The notes under the pieces were generated by a model. That model did no database searches. It saw only the letters and a program-made list of their open reading frames with translations, and had not been told where the DNA came from. From positions 1 to 58,240 of the forward strand of contig ATWQ01000013.1 of NCBI GenBank assembly GCA_000421325.1: DNA of 58,240 nucleotides. Direction: 5' to 3'. Positions 1 to 58,240 of the stretch are shown here, piece after piece. The translations under genes and the position numbers were made by a program. The DNA comes from an alpha proteobacterium SCGC AAA536-K22. Its GTDB lineage: Bacteria > Pseudomonadota > Alphaproteobacteria > Puniceispirillales > Marisalimonadaceae. How positions within the stretch are numbered: position 1 is the first letter of the stretch; the number at the start of each line of letters is the position of its first letter.

Positions 1-95
1 ATGAAAGAAGGAGGATTAACTGACGATATGATAAGGCTTTCTGTTGGCTTGGAAGATGTTAAAGATATCAAAAAAGATTTTGAAAAAGGTTTTAA
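1..95 (+). repeat. Inverted copy of metY 3' region (left copy)
   Basis: These 95 bases are identical to the reverse complement of 1563-1657, which is the last third-of-a-hundred codons of metY. The copy reads MKEGGLTDDMIRL... in the plus direction and diverges at base 96, where the acyl-CoA ligase fragment begins. The match sits exactly at the window edge. Confidence 0.95.
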
Positions 96-1537: not shown

Positions 1538-2833
1538 CTATTTATTTATTTTTTTGACAGCCTTAAAACCTTTTTCAAAATCTTTTTTGATATCTTTAAC
1601 ATCTTCCAAGCCAACAGAAAGCCTTATCATATCGTCAGTTAATCCTCCTTCTTTCATAGCTTCTGCACTTAGATGAGAATGAGTTGTACTCCCTGGATGA
1701 ATTAGAAGTGTCTTAGCATCACCAACATTTGCTAAATGAGACGCTAACTGTACAGATTCTATAAATACTTGCCCAGCTTTTCGTCCACCTTTAATTCCAA
1801 ATACTATTATAGAACCAGATCCTTTAGGTAAGATTTTTTTTGCTACCTCGTGATCAGGATGTGTATCTAAATCAGGATGTTTAACCCAAGCGACAGCTTC
1901 ATGATTACTTAGAAAGTCAAGAATAGAGTGAGTGTTTTCAATATGTTTTTTCATTCTCAATGGTAATGTTTCTATCCCCTGCATTAAATGGAAAGCATTT
2001 GTGGGAGAGAGAGAAGGACCAAAATTATACATTCCTTCTGCTCTTATTTTAGCTATTAATGCAGATGGTCCAAATTCTTCCCAAAAACTTATACCTCCCA
2101 AGGCAAAATGTGGTCCCGAAATAGTTGGATATTTATCTTTGTCACTCCAATCAAAGTTTCCACCATTTACAATAGCACCTCCAATTGCAATACCGTGGCC
2201 ACCCAACCATTTCGTAAGTGAATGAACTACAATATTTGCTCCGTATTTAAATGGTTGCATTAAATATGGAGTATTGAAAGTAGCATCAAGTACGAGAGGC
2301 ACATTTTTGCTTTTACATATTTCTGCAATTGTTGGTACATCCATAATATCTAATCCAGGATTTCCAATAACTTCGCCAAAGACTAGTTTGGTGTTAGGTT
2401 TGATAGCATTCTCAATAGCTTCTGGATCATTTGGATTTACAAAATCTGTTTTAATACCGAAACGCGGCATAGTATGCTGAAGTAAGTTTATGTTAGCACC
2501 ATACATTTTGCTTGAAGCTACAATATGGTCACCACTGCTGCATATAGCAGAAACTACTAAATGCATTGCAGCCATTCCACTAGAACATGCAAGGGCGCTA
2601 GCTCCACCTTCTAATGCTGCTAATCTTTGTTCAAGTGCTGCAACGGTGGGATTCGAAATTCTAGTATATAGATGACCACCAACCTCCATATTATATAAAG
2701 AAGCAGCTTCTTCAGTACTTTTAAAAACATATGATGTGGTCTGATAAATAGGAACAGCGCGAGACCCAGTCTCTTTGTCAGGAATATGACCTGCATGTAA
2801 AGAAAGAGTATCAAACTTGTAATTTTCAGTCAT
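1538..2833 (-). CDS. metY: O-acetylhomoserine aminocarboxypropyltransferase (sulfhydrylase)
   Basis: A PLP enzyme of the Cys/Met metabolism family that makes homocysteine (or methionine with methanethiol) from O-acetylhomoserine and sulfide. The length of 431 residues is that of MetY rather than the ~400-residue MetZ. The substrate-loop YTRISNPT is at 56-63, the SSGMAA phosphate-binding turn at 84-89 and the PLP lysine is Lys208 in SLTKWLGGHG. An AAGGAA ribosome site lies just before the ATG. It leads a minus-strand group with the hydrolase. Its 3' end is the source of the inverted copy at the window edge. MetY versus a closely related cystathionine-type enzyme is settled mainly by length and by the N-terminal FDTLSLHAG motif. 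Confidence 0.92.
   Translation of the reverse strand: MTENYKFDTLSLHAGHIPDKETGSRAVPIYQTTSYVFKSTEEAASLYNMEVGGHLYTRISNPTVAALEQRLAALEGGASALACSSGMAAMHLVVSAICSSGDHIVASSKMYGANINLLQHTMPRFGIKTDFVNPNDPEAIENAIKPNTKLVFGEVIGNPGLDIMDVPTIAEICKSKNVPLVLDATFNTPYLMQPFKYGANIVVHSLTKWLGGHGIAIGGAIVNGGNFDWSDKDKYPTISGPHFALGGISFWEEFGPSALIAKIRAEGMYNFGPSLSPTNAFHLMQGIETLPLRMKKHIENTHSILDFLSNHEAVAWVKHPDLDTHPDHEVAKKILPKGSGSIIVFGIKGGRKAGQVFIESVQLASHLANVGDAKTLLIHPGSTTHSHLSAEAMKEGGLTDDMIRLSVGLEDVKDIKKDFEKGFKAVKKINK
1563..1657 (-). repeat. Inverted repeat partner inside metY
   Basis: This is the genuine location of the 95-base sequence that is repeated in inverse orientation at 1-95. It lies inside the intact metY reading frame, so this copy is the original and the edge copy is the derived one. 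Confidence 0.95.
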
Positions 2834-4711: not shown

Positions 4712-7700
4712 TTGAACCAATTAAATCCTATTAGATTAGACGATTGTTTTACAAAGGACAATGATTTAGCGTTAATGAATGGTGTTCAAGCCTTAGTTCG
4801 TCTTTTAATTGAACAAGCAAAACTAGATAAAGATAACGGTTTATTAACTAATGGTTATGTAAGTGGTTATCCTGGTTCTCCTCTTGGTACACTTGATTTA
4901 GAACTTGGTAGAGCCAAAAAACATTTAGATAAGTATAATATTGTTTTTCAACCTGCAGTTAATGAAGAGTTGGCCGCTACTGCAGCTTGGGGCACCCAAA
5001 TGCTTGGCTTATATGATAGACCAGAAATTGATGGTGTTTTTTCAATGTGGTACGGAAAAGGTCCTGGCTTGGATAGGGCAATGGACGCATTAAGACATGC
5101 AAATATGGGTGGGGTCGCCTTAAAAGGTGGAATGGTCTTAGCAGTGGCTGACGATCCTATTGGAAAAAGTTCAACATTAGCTTACCAATCAGAACAATCG
5201 TTAATTTCTGCAGGAATTCCTGTTTTTTATCCTGCAAATGTAGATGACGTTATAACTTTAGGTTTACAAGCTTTTGCTCTATCTCGTTATGCAGGTATAT
5301 GTGTAGCTCTTAAAATTACAAGTGATACCGCCGATTCAAATGCAGTAATTGATCTTGGTAAATTAAGGCCAAACCTTTTTAAGTTGGATCCACCAACAAA
5401 TGTTCATGTGAACAGACACGATCCAGCATTAGATAGAGAAGCTGCCCTAATAAAAAGACGAATACCTGCAACTAGAAATTTTATTAAACAGAATAAAATA
5501 AATAAAGTAATTTTTAATCCTGAAAAAAAGACTCTTGGTATTATTGCAGTTGGAAAAGCGGCTACTGAAACGATAGATGCTTTTGATCGTATTGGAATAA
5601 AAACCCCTGAAAATATTGGAATTGGTTTTTTTGCCTGTAAAATCCCTTGGCCTTTAATAGATGAAGAGATAATTGATTTTTGTAACCAATTTGAAGAAAT
5701 ACTTGTTGTTGAAGAAAAGGGAGGCATTGTCGAAGAACAAGTTGCACATATTCTTTTTAATTCTAAATTTCGACCTTTATTATCTGGAAAATTTGATGCA
5801 ACAACAAAAGAAGAATTAATTCCAAATGTTTCTGAATTATCTAGCGATATTATTGCAGACTGCCTTCTAAAAAAAATTAAGCAATCTTCTGTCGAGTTTG
5901 ATATTCCTAAAGTTAAATCTGTGTCATTAGGAAGTAATTTACCACCGGTTGCCTCAAGAACACCATGGTATTGTGCAGGATGCCCTCATAATTCTGGAAC
6001 TAAAACACCTGAAGATGAAGTTGTGGGTATAGGAATTGGTTGTCATTCAATAGGTTATTTTCTACATCCAGAAAAATTAACTAATTTTAGTCAAATGGGT
6101 GGAGAAGGCGGTCATTGGATTGGAAGAGCACCTTTTTCAAATCAAAATCATACTTTTCAAAATATAGGTGATGGAACCTATGCTCATTCTGGATCTCTTG
6201 CAATAAGGGCAGCAGTTTCAGCAAATGTAAATATAACTTTTAAAATTCTTTATAATGATGCTGTTGCTATGACAGGTGGTCAAAAGGCCATTGGAGGAGC
6301 TACCCCCTGGGCAATCTCTAAACAATTATCCGCAGAAGGGGTAAGAAAAATTTATGTAGTGTCAGATGAGCCAGAGCAATTTAAAGAAACAAGATTATTT
6401 GCTGATAAGGTAGGAATATTTCATCGTGATGAACTTATAAATGTTCAAAAAGAAGTTAGAAATATACCAGGTGTAACAGCAATTATTTATGTTCAAACAT
6501 GTGCTACAGAACTTAGAAGAAGACGTAAAAGAGGATATATACAAGATAGAGATATAAAAATGTATATAAACCCAGATGTTTGTGAAGGATGTGGTGATTG
6601 CGCAGAAAAATCCAACTGCGTTGCTGTTAAACCTTTTGATCATTTTGAAGGAACTAAAAGACAGATTGATCAAAGTGTCTGTAACAAAGATTATTCTTGC
6701 AAAAAAGGTTTTTGTCCAAGTTTTATTGGTGTTTCGTCAGGTAGTTTATCTAAGCCTTTAAAAAAATCTTTTCCAGATATTCCTGATATTTTTAATTCCT
6801 TAAGTAAACCCAGACAAAGATTGAATCAAATTCAAAATCTTATTATGGCAGGCATAGGGGGTACTGGAATTTCAACTGTAGCGGCAATAGTAGTCATGGC
6901 AGCCCGAATTGACAAGTTATATGCACAATCAATGAATTTCACAGGCTTGGCCCAAAAAAATGGTGCTGTAACCAGCCAAATTAGAATTAGTAAAGATAAA
7001 TCTCTTTATACTCGATCTGCAAGACTTCCAAATGAAACTGCCGATTTACTCCTTGGATGCGATGCAGTTGTTTCAGTCTCACCCTCAATTACTAGAACAT
7101 TAAATCCAAATAAAACAATAGCCATAATTAATGGAAGAGTTGAACCAGTTGGTGTGGCAGGGGTTCATATAGGTACTGTTGTTGATGATAGTTTATTAAA
7201 AAAACATCTAGAAAATCATTTGGAAGAAGAAAATATAAAATTTATCGATATATCTAACTTAGCAGAATCTTTAGTTGGCGATACTGTATCAGCAAACATA
7301 ATGATGCTAGGTATGGCGGCTCAAAAAAGCCTTATACCAATCGAAATTAGTTCTTTAGAAAAAGCTATAGAGTTAAATGGTGTAGCTATCGAACAAAACC
7401 TTAGGGCCTTTAACTGGGGAAGACTATTATCAGAATATCCAGAAATAGTTTTTAAGGCTGCCCATATGGATCAAGTAATTGCAGAAGAAAAGCCTATAGG
7501 TAATTATTTGGAAAAATTTTCTGAAATACTTGAACAATATCAAGATAAAAATTACTCAAATCTTTTTTTGTCTAACGTTAATAAAGTTATTTCTAAAGAA
7601 ACTAAAATTTCTAATTCAAAAACAGAACTACCTCTCTCTAGAAAAGTTGCATTAACTCTATTTAGAATAATGAGGTACAAAGATGAATATGAAGTTGGCA

Positions 7701-54162: not shown

Positions 54163-54876
54163 TTGAAAAAAACCAAAAAAATTTTTGAGAAACCTGAAAA
54201 AAAGGTTAGACCATTAAACAATCTTTTTTATAATCTGTGGCTCCATTTAAAGAAAAGAAGAAAAATTCAATTTTTTATTTTGATGTTTCTAATGTTGTTT
54301 GCCTCTTTTTCTGAAATGATAAGTATTGGGGCAGTTATTCCATTATTAACAGTCCTTGCTAATCCTGTAATGATTTATGAAATTGAAATGTTCAAACCCT
54401 TTTTAAATCTTTTGAATATTTCTTCTGCTCAGGACTTGCTATTACCTATGACTATCTTTTTTTCTTTAGCTGCAATTTTTGCTGGTGGCATGAGATTTAT
54501 ACTTCTATGGGTTCAAACAAGGTTAAGCCATGCTGTAGGTGCAGATCTAAGTATATCAGTTTTTAGAAAAACATTATACCAAGAATATGCTGTTCATATA
54601 TCAAAGAATAGTAGTGAAATAATATCCGCAGTTGCTACTAAAACTACAGATTTAGTATATCAATGTATTTGGCCATTAATAAATATAATTAGTAGCACAG
54701 TTGTTGTTTTAGGAATTTTATCCTTACTACTTTTTATTAATTTTAAATTATCAATTATAGCCTTTTCACTACTTATAATAATTTATTTTTTTAATGTTCT
54801 AATTTTCAAAAAAAGACTTGATAAATATAGTCAAATTATTGCAACCAATCAAAATTCAGTTAATAATTCTTTTTGA
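54163..54876 (+). pseudogene. ABC exporter/flippase, N-terminal part (gene split by inversion)
   Basis: From a TTG start with AGGAT upstream this encodes the membrane part of an ABC exporter: a charged N-terminus, then membrane segments FFILMFLMLFASFSEMISIG and later ones up to IIYFFNVLIF. The genuine gene sequence ends at 54861 (ATNQNSV); the last five codons come from the junction sequence. The rest of the same gene, beginning with the very same 94 bases, is found on the minus strand from 58240 down to 57040. Joined at the repeat the two give a 601-residue ABC transporter of normal size. It is probably the flippase of the polysaccharide or lipid-linked oligosaccharide (PglK-like). Confidence 0.85.
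54768..54861 (+). repeat. 94-bp inverted repeat in the ABC exporter gene (inner copy)
   Basis: Identical to the reverse complement of 58147-58240. It encodes SLLIIIYFFNVLIFKKRLD and the adjoining residues to QNSV. The two copies bracket a 3.3-kb segment whose genes all face the other way from the rest of the locus. Confidence 0.95.
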
Positions 54877-55998
54877 TAGACTTTCAACTCTACTTAAATC
54901 CATTTTAGGGCAATTTATATATGGAGGTAATTTGTGTAATGGTTTCCATATAGGTCTTGTACCTATACCTACATTATTAGTAAGTTTTAAAATTTTATCA
55001 AACTGGTCTTTGACCTCTTCACTTAAAATAATAGTCTGTAGCCAGTAATTACTCCGATTTCCTGAGGTTTCAGCCATCAAGCTTATTTCTTTAATATGTT
55101 CTAATTTTGATTTATATATCTTATAAAGCTTTCTTTTTGATTTTATAAAAAAATCTATTTGTTTAAGTTGTGCACAACCTAGAGCAGCATTTAAGTTAGG
55201 CATTCTATAATTGTATCCAATCTCATCATGTATGTAATCCCATTTATGAGGTATTTTTGCAGTAGTTGTTAAGTGTTTAGCCCTCTCAGCAAAAGTTTTA
55301 TTGTTTGTTAATATTGCACCACCTCCACCTGTAGTTATAATCTTATTGCCGTTGAAACTTAAGACACCTAATTCACTCAAGGTCCCAGTATGTTTTTTTT
55401 TATAATAGCTCCCAAGACTTTCAGCGGCATCTTCAACAACAACTAATTTATATTTGTCTGCAATTACATTCAAATGGTCCATATCTACTGGATGTCCAAA
55501 AACATGCATTGGCACAATAGCTCTTATTACATTTTGTGTTTTTTTATTTATACATTTTCCATTTCTTTGTTCTGTTTCATAATGCAGATATTGATCAAGT
55601 TTTTCAGGATCTATAGCTGGATGTTCGTCATAGCAATCCATGAAATGAGGTTTTGCAAAGCAATACGAAACAGCATTTGCTGTCGCAACAAAACTTAATG
55701 ATGGTATAAGAACCTCATCACCGGAAGTCACTCCAGCAATTTTTAATGCAATATGAAGTCCAGATGTTCCATTTGAAACTGCAATAGCATAATCTGCTCC
55801 TGTAAATTTAGCTAAAGCTGTTTCAAACTCTTTGACATAAGAACCTACAGATGAAACATAAGTTGAATGTAAACAATTTTTTAAATATTGCCACTCTTGC
55901 CCTTTAAAAAGTGGCTCATGAAGAGGAACTTTTTCTTTACCAACCACACTAGTAATCGCGGTAAATATTGCTTTTGAAATGTCTTTTGGTTTAGTCAT
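54856..55998 (-). CDS. legC: LegC-like PLP aminotransferase, C-terminus cut by the inversion junction
   Basis: A 380-residue DegT/DnrJ/EryC1-family sugar aminotransferase. NGTSGLHIALKIAGVTSGDEVLIPSLSFVATANAV, EDAAESLGSYYKKKHTGT (Asp), and SFNGNKIITTGGGGAIL with the PLP lysine are present, and the start and length match LegC, which aminates UDP-4-keto-6-deoxy-GlcNAc in the legionaminic-acid pathway. The last residues read SLSKRIIN and then a stop that lies in the ABC-gene repeat (54856-54858); family members usually run on for ~10 more residues, so the true C-terminus is missing here. Its ATG overlaps the legB stop by four bases. Confidence 0.8.
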   Translation of the reverse strand: MTKPKDISKAIFTAITSVVGKEKVPLHEPLFKGQEWQYLKNCLHSTYVSSVGSYVKEFETALAKFTGADYAIAVSNGTSGLHIALKIAGVTSGDEVLIPSLSFVATANAVSYCFAKPHFMDCYDEHPAIDPEKLDQYLHYETEQRNGKCINKKTQNVIRAIVPMHVFGHPVDMDHLNVIADKYKLVVVEDAAESLGSYYKKKHTGTLSELGVLSFNGNKIITTGGGGAILTNNKTFAERAKHLTTTAKIPHKWDYIHDEIGYNYRMPNLNAALGCAQLKQIDFFIKSKRKLYKIYKSKLEHIKEISLMAETSGNRSNYWLQTIILSEEVKDQFDKILKLTNNVGIGTRPIWKPLHKLPPYINCPKMDLSRVESLSKRIIN

Positions 55999-57029
55999 AT
56001 GTTGTAAATGTCAGATTTGTATGATTTGAGGTTTTTGGGATTAATAAACCATTCAATAGTTTTTTCTATGCCTCTGGAAAAGCCTTCACGCCCTCCATAC
56101 GAAGGTGACCAATTTAAAAAACTTTTGGCTTTTTCATTAGATGCCCAAAGTCGTTGTACTTCTGAATTTTTAGGCCTAAAACGACCTTTATCTGAGACAA
56201 TACTAACTTTTCTTGACATTTTTTTTGCTATTAATTCAACAGTCTCTTTAATTGAGACTTCAAAATTACTTCCTAGATTTATTACCTCACCATCACAGTT
56301 TTTAATTTCTAATGCTGCTTTAAAACCAGCTACAGTATCGTCAATATAATTAAAGTCTCGGGTTGGGAACACTGTTCCTAAATTGATTTCATCAAAACCA
56401 TTTGCAATTTGTGATATGATAGTTGGTATAACTGCACGAGCGGATTGTCTAGGCCCATAGGTATTAAAAGGTCTTAAAGTTATAACAGGTAATCCAAATG
56501 AAGAATAAAAAGAATATGCTAATTGATCTGCCGCAATTTTGGTTGCAGAATATGGAGATTGACCTTGAAGCGGATGAGTTTCGTCAATTGGTACATATTG
56601 TGCAGTTCCATAAACTTCACTAGTAGAAGTGTGGATAATCTTTTCTAACTCTAATTCTTGTGCTGCCTGTAGTACATTTAAAGTCCCCTTTACATTTGTA
56701 TCGACATATGTTTCTGGGGAGTGATAAGAGTATGGAATCGAAATTAGAGATGCTAAATGAAGGACAGCATTACAACCTTTCATAGCTTTTTTAACACCAT
56801 ATGGATCTCGAATATCTCCTGAGAAAACTTCGAATTTATCTTTTATTTCCTCAGAGCAAAAGTCAAGCCAACCAAAGCTACCAAAAGAGTTATAAAGGAC
56901 AAAAGCTTTAACATCGTAACCAAGTCGAACTAGATACTCGGTTAGATGAGAACCTATGAAACCATCTGCTCCAGTGATAAGTATTTTATTTTTATGATAC
57001 ACAAATTTATCTGAGTTTTCATTAATCAT
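55995..57029 (-). CDS. legB: LegB-like UDP-sugar 4,6-dehydratase
   Basis: A 344-residue NAD-dependent SDR. LITGADGFIGSHLTEYLV, HLASLISIPYSYHSPETY, STSEVYGTAQYVPIDE and YSATKIAADQLAYSF (Tyr/Lys) are present, and NTYGPRQSARAVIPTIISQI plus VINLGSNFEVSIKETVELI are typical of LegB, which makes the 4-keto-6-deoxy UDP sugar for legionaminic acid. It lies between the ABC C-terminal part (10 bases away) and legC, all on the minus strand. GDP- versus UDP-linked substrate cannot be told by eye. Confidence 0.82.
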   Translation of the reverse strand: MINENSDKFVYHKNKILITGADGFIGSHLTEYLVRLGYDVKAFVLYNSFGSFGWLDFCSEEIKDKFEVFSGDIRDPYGVKKAMKGCNAVLHLASLISIPYSYHSPETYVDTNVKGTLNVLQAAQELELEKIIHTSTSEVYGTAQYVPIDETHPLQGQSPYSATKIAADQLAYSFYSSFGLPVITLRPFNTYGPRQSARAVIPTIISQIANGFDEINLGTVFPTRDFNYIDDTVAGFKAALEIKNCDGEVINLGSNFEVSIKETVELIAKKMSRKVSIVSDKGRFRPKNSEVQRLWASNEKAKSFLNWSPSYGGREGFSRGIEKTIEWFINPKNLKSYKSDIYNI

Positions 57030-57039
57030 ATTTATATTT

Positions 57040-58240
57040 TCAGTTTCCTAAAACTTCTTCATAACTGCATATTCTACTAACTTGGCCTTTATTCAATTCA
57101 ATAATTGAGTTACAATATCTAAGTGAACTTAAGCGATGAGCAACCATTATAGTTGTAAGATTTGTTTTTCCTAAAAACATGCTTTTCAAAAACAACTCTT
57201 CAGTTTCATTGTCTAGAGCGCTTGTTGCCTCATCCAAAACAAGTAAACTAGCTGATTTATAAAGCGCTCGGGCAATGCCAATTCTTTGTCTTTGTCCCCC
57301 TGAAAGTCGTTCTCCTTTTTCACCTATTATAGTATTATAATTATTTTCCATTAACATGATTGTCTCATGTATTTGAGCTTTTCTAGCAGCATTAAAAACT
57401 TGGTCCATAACTATTTTATCAGTCTCAACACCAAATGCAATATTTTGGGCAATTGTAGTATCAAGAAGAAATATATTTTGTGGTACATGAGCGATGTGAT
57501 TTTGCCATGATCTAATATTACCTTTTTTCAAAATCATATCATCAATAATAATTTTTCCATGATCTGGTTCTAACAAACCCATTAATAAGTCAAGAAAAGT
57601 GCTTTTACCACTTCCGGAAGAGCCAATGACACCAATACAGTCACCTTTTTTAAATTGAAAATTTATGTTTTTTAATGCACTAGTTTTATTTTTGGGATAA
57701 GAAAATTTTAAATTTTTTATATGAACAATTTTCTTAAAATTTATTTGATGGTTGTTGTTGATAAAAGCATCTACTTCAAATTCTTGTTCCATTAAAGTTA
57801 CCACATCTTCTAGACCTTGGTGGCCAGTTATGATAGCTGCCCAACTCGAATATATTTGTTGTATCAGTGGCAGTAGTCTCTGCGCCCCAAGTGCAAGTGA
57901 TCCGAGTGCTGGGATAATAGTTTGAAAACCTACTTCTGGACTGATGAAGTAATACGCTATTGATGCAATTACGACCATCCCTAAAGCTTCAACGATAAAT
58001 TTTGGGCTGTTACCTATAATTTGGGCAAATGCCATTGATAATCTTAGAGGGATATCCGCATTTCTGTAATGATTAACATATATTTCTTGATTACCATGAA
58101 TAAGAACATCTCGAATTCCGTGAAGTCCTTCTTGAAGTGATTTATAAACTGAATTTTGATTGGTTGCAATAATTTGACTATATTTATCAAGTCTTTTTTT
58201 GAAAATTAGAACATTAAAAAAATAAATTATTATAAGTAGT
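57040..58240 (-). pseudogene. ABC exporter/flippase, C-terminal part (rest of the split gene)
   Basis: Open from the window edge on the minus strand, this gives about 399 residues: the repeat-encoded helix (LLIIIYFFNVLIFKKRLD, QNSVYKSLQEGLHGIRDV), further membrane segments, and the ATPase with Walker A GSSGSGKSTFLDLLMG, Q-loop HVPQNIFLLD, signature LSGGQRQRIGIARAL, Walker B LLVLDEATSALDNE and H-loop VAHRLSSL. All ATPase motifs are intact. An internal ATG at 58035 is not a real start. The genes legB and legC follow it directly, so the original operon was flippase - legB - legC. Confidence 0.87.
58147..58240 (-). repeat. 94-bp inverted repeat at window edge (outer copy)
   Basis: Reverse complement of 54768-54861, without mismatch, ending at the last base of the window. 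Inside the minus-strand ABC frame it continues as YKSLQEGLHG, the natural follow-on that the plus-strand copy lacks. Confidence 0.95.

Follow-up and report, generated by a model that had tools for sequence, protein, structure and literature searches.

A split ABC exporter gene at a contig end of SCGC AAA536-K22 is almost certainly an artefact, probably an amplification fold-back in a k=95 assembly

Introduction

Is the ABC exporter gene that lies in two opposite-strand pieces at one end of a contig of the alphaproteobacterium SCGC AAA536-K22 a genuine invertible switch, or was its arrangement produced by amplification and assembly? The window analysed here is the entire contig 13 (C13; ATWQ01000013.1, 58,240 bases), and the two pieces of the gene share an exact 94-bp inverted repeat. 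The inner arm (54768..54861, plus strand) was located by exact repeat search and is the exporter gene's own coding sequence. The outer arm (58147..58240, minus strand), located by the same search and by the contig end, is flush with the terminus; its final base is the last base of C13 and no sequence is assembled beyond it. A chance origin of the repeat was considered and rejected, as an exact match of 94 bp is unexpected by chance. An original prediction for this DNA had described such a repeat with its outer copy at the window edge, and this description is accurate. It took a fold-back chimera or graph artefact as the simplest reading and a flippase switch as the alternative. The inversion is almost certainly not a real feature of the genome, and is best read as a fold-back chimera of whole-genome amplification in an assembly built with k=95.

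One exporter gene in two pieces

The N-terminal piece of the exporter (54163..54861, plus strand, 233 amino acids) holds membrane part, and the C-terminal piece (57040..58239, minus strand, 399 amino acids, open at the contig end) holds the end of the membrane part and the ATPase. Both were assigned from their open reading frames (ORFs), profile matches and alignment to relatives. The pieces have 31 residues in common, and joined at the repeat they give 233 + 399 − 31 = 601 residues, which is the single 601-codon exporter that had been predicted. The ABC_membrane profile is matched from position 8 to 164 of 274 in the first piece and from 151 to 245 of 274 in the second, with scores of 25.9 and 21.9 bits that are under the Pfam cut-off of 28, and a complete ABC_tran domain is present in the second piece. 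The predicted order, membrane domain and then ATPase, is borne out by these two profiles.

Between the two pieces are legC (54856..55998, minus strand), encoding an aminotransferase, and legB (55995..57029, minus strand), encoding an NAD-dependent 4,6-dehydratase. Their predicted identities hold, as both exceed the NCBIfam cut-offs (TIGR04181 with 525.8 bits against 420 for LegC, and TIGR04180 with 497.9 bits against 475 for LegB). LegC is clipped at 54861/54862, where its final few residues are lost; the model is matched from 1 to 355 of 359, and legC and the exporter are therefore both damaged at the same junction.

In two genomes of the same genus the exporter is one unbroken ORF, of 608 amino acids in L065 and 586 amino acids in L066. 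The two pieces align consecutively in both, at 5787-6455 and 6372-7553 of L065 and at 10596-9976 and 10041-8860 of L066. Past the shared stretch, the sequence of both relatives follows the second piece, and with it the outer copy, and departs from the join at 54861/54862. The join (54861..54862), where the ABC exporter meets the reversed 3' end of legC, is therefore the foreign one, a chimeric junction. No exact inverted repeat of at least 25 bp was found in the L065 or L066 stretches (15.4 and 10.9 kb).

Very probably, the cell has a single normal ABC exporter gene of about 601 residues, with legB and legC after it on the same strand. The order exporter-legB-legC is taken from the window, because in L065 and L066 legB and legC do not adjoin the exporter and the relatives are therefore uninformative on the order of those genes. 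A search of the contig collection for relatives of the C-terminal piece gave one distant spirochaete match only (29% identical). The lost continuation of legC was sought in the assembly, where the DNA of 54700-55100 matches only C13, and the search did not recover the native flank on the far side of legC; three other LegC matches are present in the assembly, each at most 39% identical.

In its domain order, and in the LegB and LegC families beside it, the locus is like an MsbA/PglK-type exporter next to the legionaminic-acid genes legB and legC. It is unlike that type in that, with the MsbA and PglK models, the pieces score far under the cut-offs, and therefore no specific substrate is claimed. 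With the MsbA model (TIGR02203) the two pieces, neither of which is the whole gene, score 30.3 and 242.7 bits, where the cut-off is 602. The genes of this locus, the exporter with legB and legC, are of a kind ordinary for glycan loci.

Inverted repeats at contig ends

Only two inverted repeats were found in the whole window when it was searched with exact seeds of 28 bp: the pair at 54768-54861/58147-58240, and a 95-bp pair at 1-95/1563-1657. Each ends on a contig terminus. The outer arm of the second fold-back (1..95), at the contig's other end, is an exact inverted copy of its inner arm (1563..1657), which is inside a 431-amino-acid minus-strand ORF (1538-2833). This fold-back sits between an acyl-CoA-synthetase-like ORF that is cut by the contig end and the 431-amino-acid ORF, which resembles a pyridoxal-phosphate enzyme (both names are from reading the sequence).

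The assembly has 92 contigs, 1,995,180 bases and 184 ends, and is 79.8% complete. The survey read 6 kb per end, so that longer loops would be missed, and covered both ends of C1-C21 (42 ends, C13 included) and the starts of C22-C31 (10), or 52 of the 184 ends. An inverted repeat flush with the terminus was present at 11 of the 52, and the arm is exactly 95 bp at nine of these (the ends of C3, C6, C9 and C15 and the starts of C10, C12, C13, C14 and C27). The other two arms are 94 bp, at the C13 end, and 153 bp, at the C31 start. Exact inverted repeats of at least 25 bp are otherwise nearly absent from the surveyed stretches, as 11 of the 12 found are terminal and the remaining one is a 30-bp pair near the C19 end. 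The genes differ among the eight 95-bp sites on C1-C21, and the loops of the surveyed fold-backs span about 0.8 to 5 kb. The 153-bp repeat at the C31 start (L099, 1-153/1734-1886) has its inner arm in a 346-amino-acid ORF that reads as rpoA-like.

The C27 start (L095, 1-95/1584-1678) serves as an internal control, with a 95-bp fold-back inside a ribosomal-protein cluster. Here the gene for ribosomal protein L2 (rplB) is present in two opposite-strand pieces, which match the model over positions 1-108 and 72-274 of its 275, and the junction also cuts ribosomal protein S3. The two pieces, whose halves were searched apart and not joined, are the sole rplB matches in the assembly. We know of no bacterium that lives without rplB, and an arrangement in which the sole copy is split is not viable in any cell. 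The anatomy of the exporter locus is thus repeated in an essential gene, and therefore cannot be taken at face value.

A repeat flush with the contig terminus, an arm of constant length across unrelated loci (nine of 95 bp, with 94 bp at this end and 153 bp at one other) and a junction that restores the gene of the relatives are all found here, as in a chimera. The artefact that the original prediction took as its simplest reading is strongly upheld by the survey of contig ends, with the 95-bp arm at the C13 start, nine further ends and the split rplB.

Comparison with related assemblies

The controls were 46 readable contig starts from five related genomes (10 each from G001, G005 and G009, and 8 each from G031 and G053). 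Two all-N contigs of G031 (L071 and L072) were left out, and a G005 stretch containing 2,500 N was retained. No terminal arm of 94 or 95 bp is present at any of the 46, and one control (G005 C2) has an interior 51-bp inverted pair. When starts only are compared, an arm of at least 94 bp is present at 6 of 31 in this assembly and 0 of 46 in the controls (Fisher p 0.003). Terminal inverted repeats as such occur in other assemblies too, and the constant 95 is seen only in this one.

A toy de Bruijn graph was built from random sequence with one fold-back chimera, at k=55, 77, 95 and 127. The contig ended in an inverted repeat exactly k long in 15 of 20 runs, for both loop directions and all four values of k. 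The other five runs gave no contig under the filter, probably where both branches share their first base by chance.

Proposed origin of the arrangement

During whole-genome amplification, most likely multiple displacement amplification (MDA) of one cell with phi29, a strand copying this region would fold back, and in the resulting molecules the end of legC, reversed, would follow directly on the exporter sequence at base 54861. A k=95 de Bruijn graph would show this as a hairpin loop that is entered and left through one and the same 95-mer, read on opposite strands. The assembler would walk the loop in the wrong direction and halt on meeting its own entry 95-mer again. The 'repeat' would then be that k-mer vertex, and the 'inversion' the loop read backwards. 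We infer the MDA and single-cell origin, the assembler, its k and the native order exporter-legB-legC.

These steps have counterparts in published work. In the available text of PMC8364033, single-cell genomes were assembled with the SPAdes v3.9.0 options '-sc -careful -k 25,55,95', and the arms at nine surveyed ends are like the contig-end overlaps of such an assembly in having the length of the largest k. The arm at the C13 end departs from them by a single base (94), and for the present contigs an assembler of this kind is presumed. Among MDA chimeras, 406 of 475 were inverted (Lasken and Stockwell 2007, PMC1855051, as given in the accessible part of that paper), and the inverted segments tended to be <10 kb apart. 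The structure at C13 is similar, as segments of one molecule that lie a few kb from each other are joined in inverted orientation. It differs in that the chimeras in the accessible part of PMC1855051 are single reads placed against a reference, and here there are assembled contig ends only, from which the amplification is deduced.

Several points weigh against a k=95 amplification fold-back. The arm in question is 94 bp and not 95, for which the '-careful' correction step or trimming may account, and at C31 the arm of 153 bp does not equal k either. As 52 of 184 ends were covered at 6 kb each, the fit to MDA chimeras 'under 10 kb' is partly imposed by the survey. The preferred chimera distance of MDA, in human DNA, is 80-280 nt in the available part of PMC5372508, which is shorter than the loops here. 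The available texts of PMC6122165 and PMC10224968 give '--careful --sc' without a k list. The same k list is found in those of PMC7065516 and PMC11253033, with 200 bp trimmed from the contig ends; such trimming would have removed these arms and was therefore evidently not done here.

The controls also contribute to this side. At two of the 46 control starts there is a terminal inverted repeat of different length, 71 bp in G053 C5 and 26 bp in G001 C3, and when these are counted the comparison of 6/31 with 2/46 is only suggestive (Fisher p 0.055). Moreover, contigs of this assembly were sampled at starts and ends and the controls at starts only. The two control repeats (L081, 1-71/1221-1291, and L102, 1-26/1749-1774), which are in genomes of the same order, are possibly the same artefact under other settings.

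Lastly, at the C12 start an ABC exporter next to a neuB-like gene is likewise split by a fold-back, which could be taken to point to glycan genes. The cases at C12 and C13 are a coincidence of gene type, two among eleven, and no pattern is drawn from them because the C12 arm, too, measures exactly 95 bp and no glycan gene is involved in the rplB case. The C12 fold-back (L036, 1-95/2592-2686) splits both this second ABC exporter of the assembly and the neuB-like gene.

Alternative explanations

Were the segment really invertible, a recombinase acting at the 94-bp repeats would flip 3.3 kb and switch an exporter of a legionaminic-acid-like surface glycan on and off. The segment is indeed flanked by exact inverted repeats, one orientation of which gives an open exporter gene as in the relatives. 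However, nine other surveyed ends have arms of exactly 95 bp, in differing genes where these were examined and in one case in the essential rplB, and site-specific recombination offers no reason why arms in unlike genes should share one length and each lie flush with a contig end. The outer arm at C13 likewise stops on the contig end, its length is within one base of an assembly parameter, and the junction clips legC as well. In L065 and L066, moreover, the gene is intact and without an exact inverted repeat of at least 25 bp. The check for a nearby recombinase gene that had been proposed was made with PF00239 and PF00589, and neither of these two families has a match on C13 in this 79.8% complete assembly. 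Assembly-wide there are one resolvase and seven phage-integrase-family matches, on C8, C15, C19, C4 and C2. With no match on C13 to the two recombinase families, arms of about k in length and a clipped legC, the flippase on/off switch that the original prediction gave as its alternative has little in its favour, and its probability is very close to nil. No more credit can be given to an inversion fixed in the lineage of the cell, with a contig end that fell on the second copy by chance. The gene pieces and their strand arrangement, taken by themselves, would permit it, but it needs a chance contig end at the edge of an arm at both C13 ends and at nine further ends.

A fold-back made by library construction or by the assembler alone, and not by MDA, is a closer competitor, as the graph signature needs only fold-back molecules, whatever their maker. 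It is nevertheless improbable. The 11 affected ends among the 52, and loops that span about 0.8 to 5 kb, are in keeping with the inverted MDA chimeras in the accessible part of PMC1855051, with the reservation that loops >6 kb are invisible to the survey, and the k list agrees with a single-cell pipeline of the kind in the available text of PMC8364033. A fold-back chimera from amplification, seen through a k=95 graph, thus has nearly all of the probability.

The finding matters only as a warning for genome mining of invertible switches, split genes and inverted repeats. In such mining, a repeat should be set aside when it lies flush with a contig end and its length recurs at other contig ends. 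The scale of the problem can be seen in this assembly, in which 11 of the 52 surveyed ends are affected and one of these splits ribosomal protein L2.

Other observations

The C7 end and the C21 start have 83 identical terminal bases in common, and these contigs may be neighbours.

Elsewhere in the window, a gene that reads as rmlA-like contains an 80-bp exact direct repeat (48223-48302/48409-48488), the copies of which are separated by 106 foreign bases. Neither the phage collection nor Rfam nor ARAGORN gave a match to the 106-base insert, and in its own genome it matches only itself. In other genomes it matches, reversed, part of an ORF in L135 that reads as acyltransferase-like (85% over 99 bases), and also a place in L134 (83% over 107). 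The insert looks like a further chimera, which breaks the rmlA-like gene.

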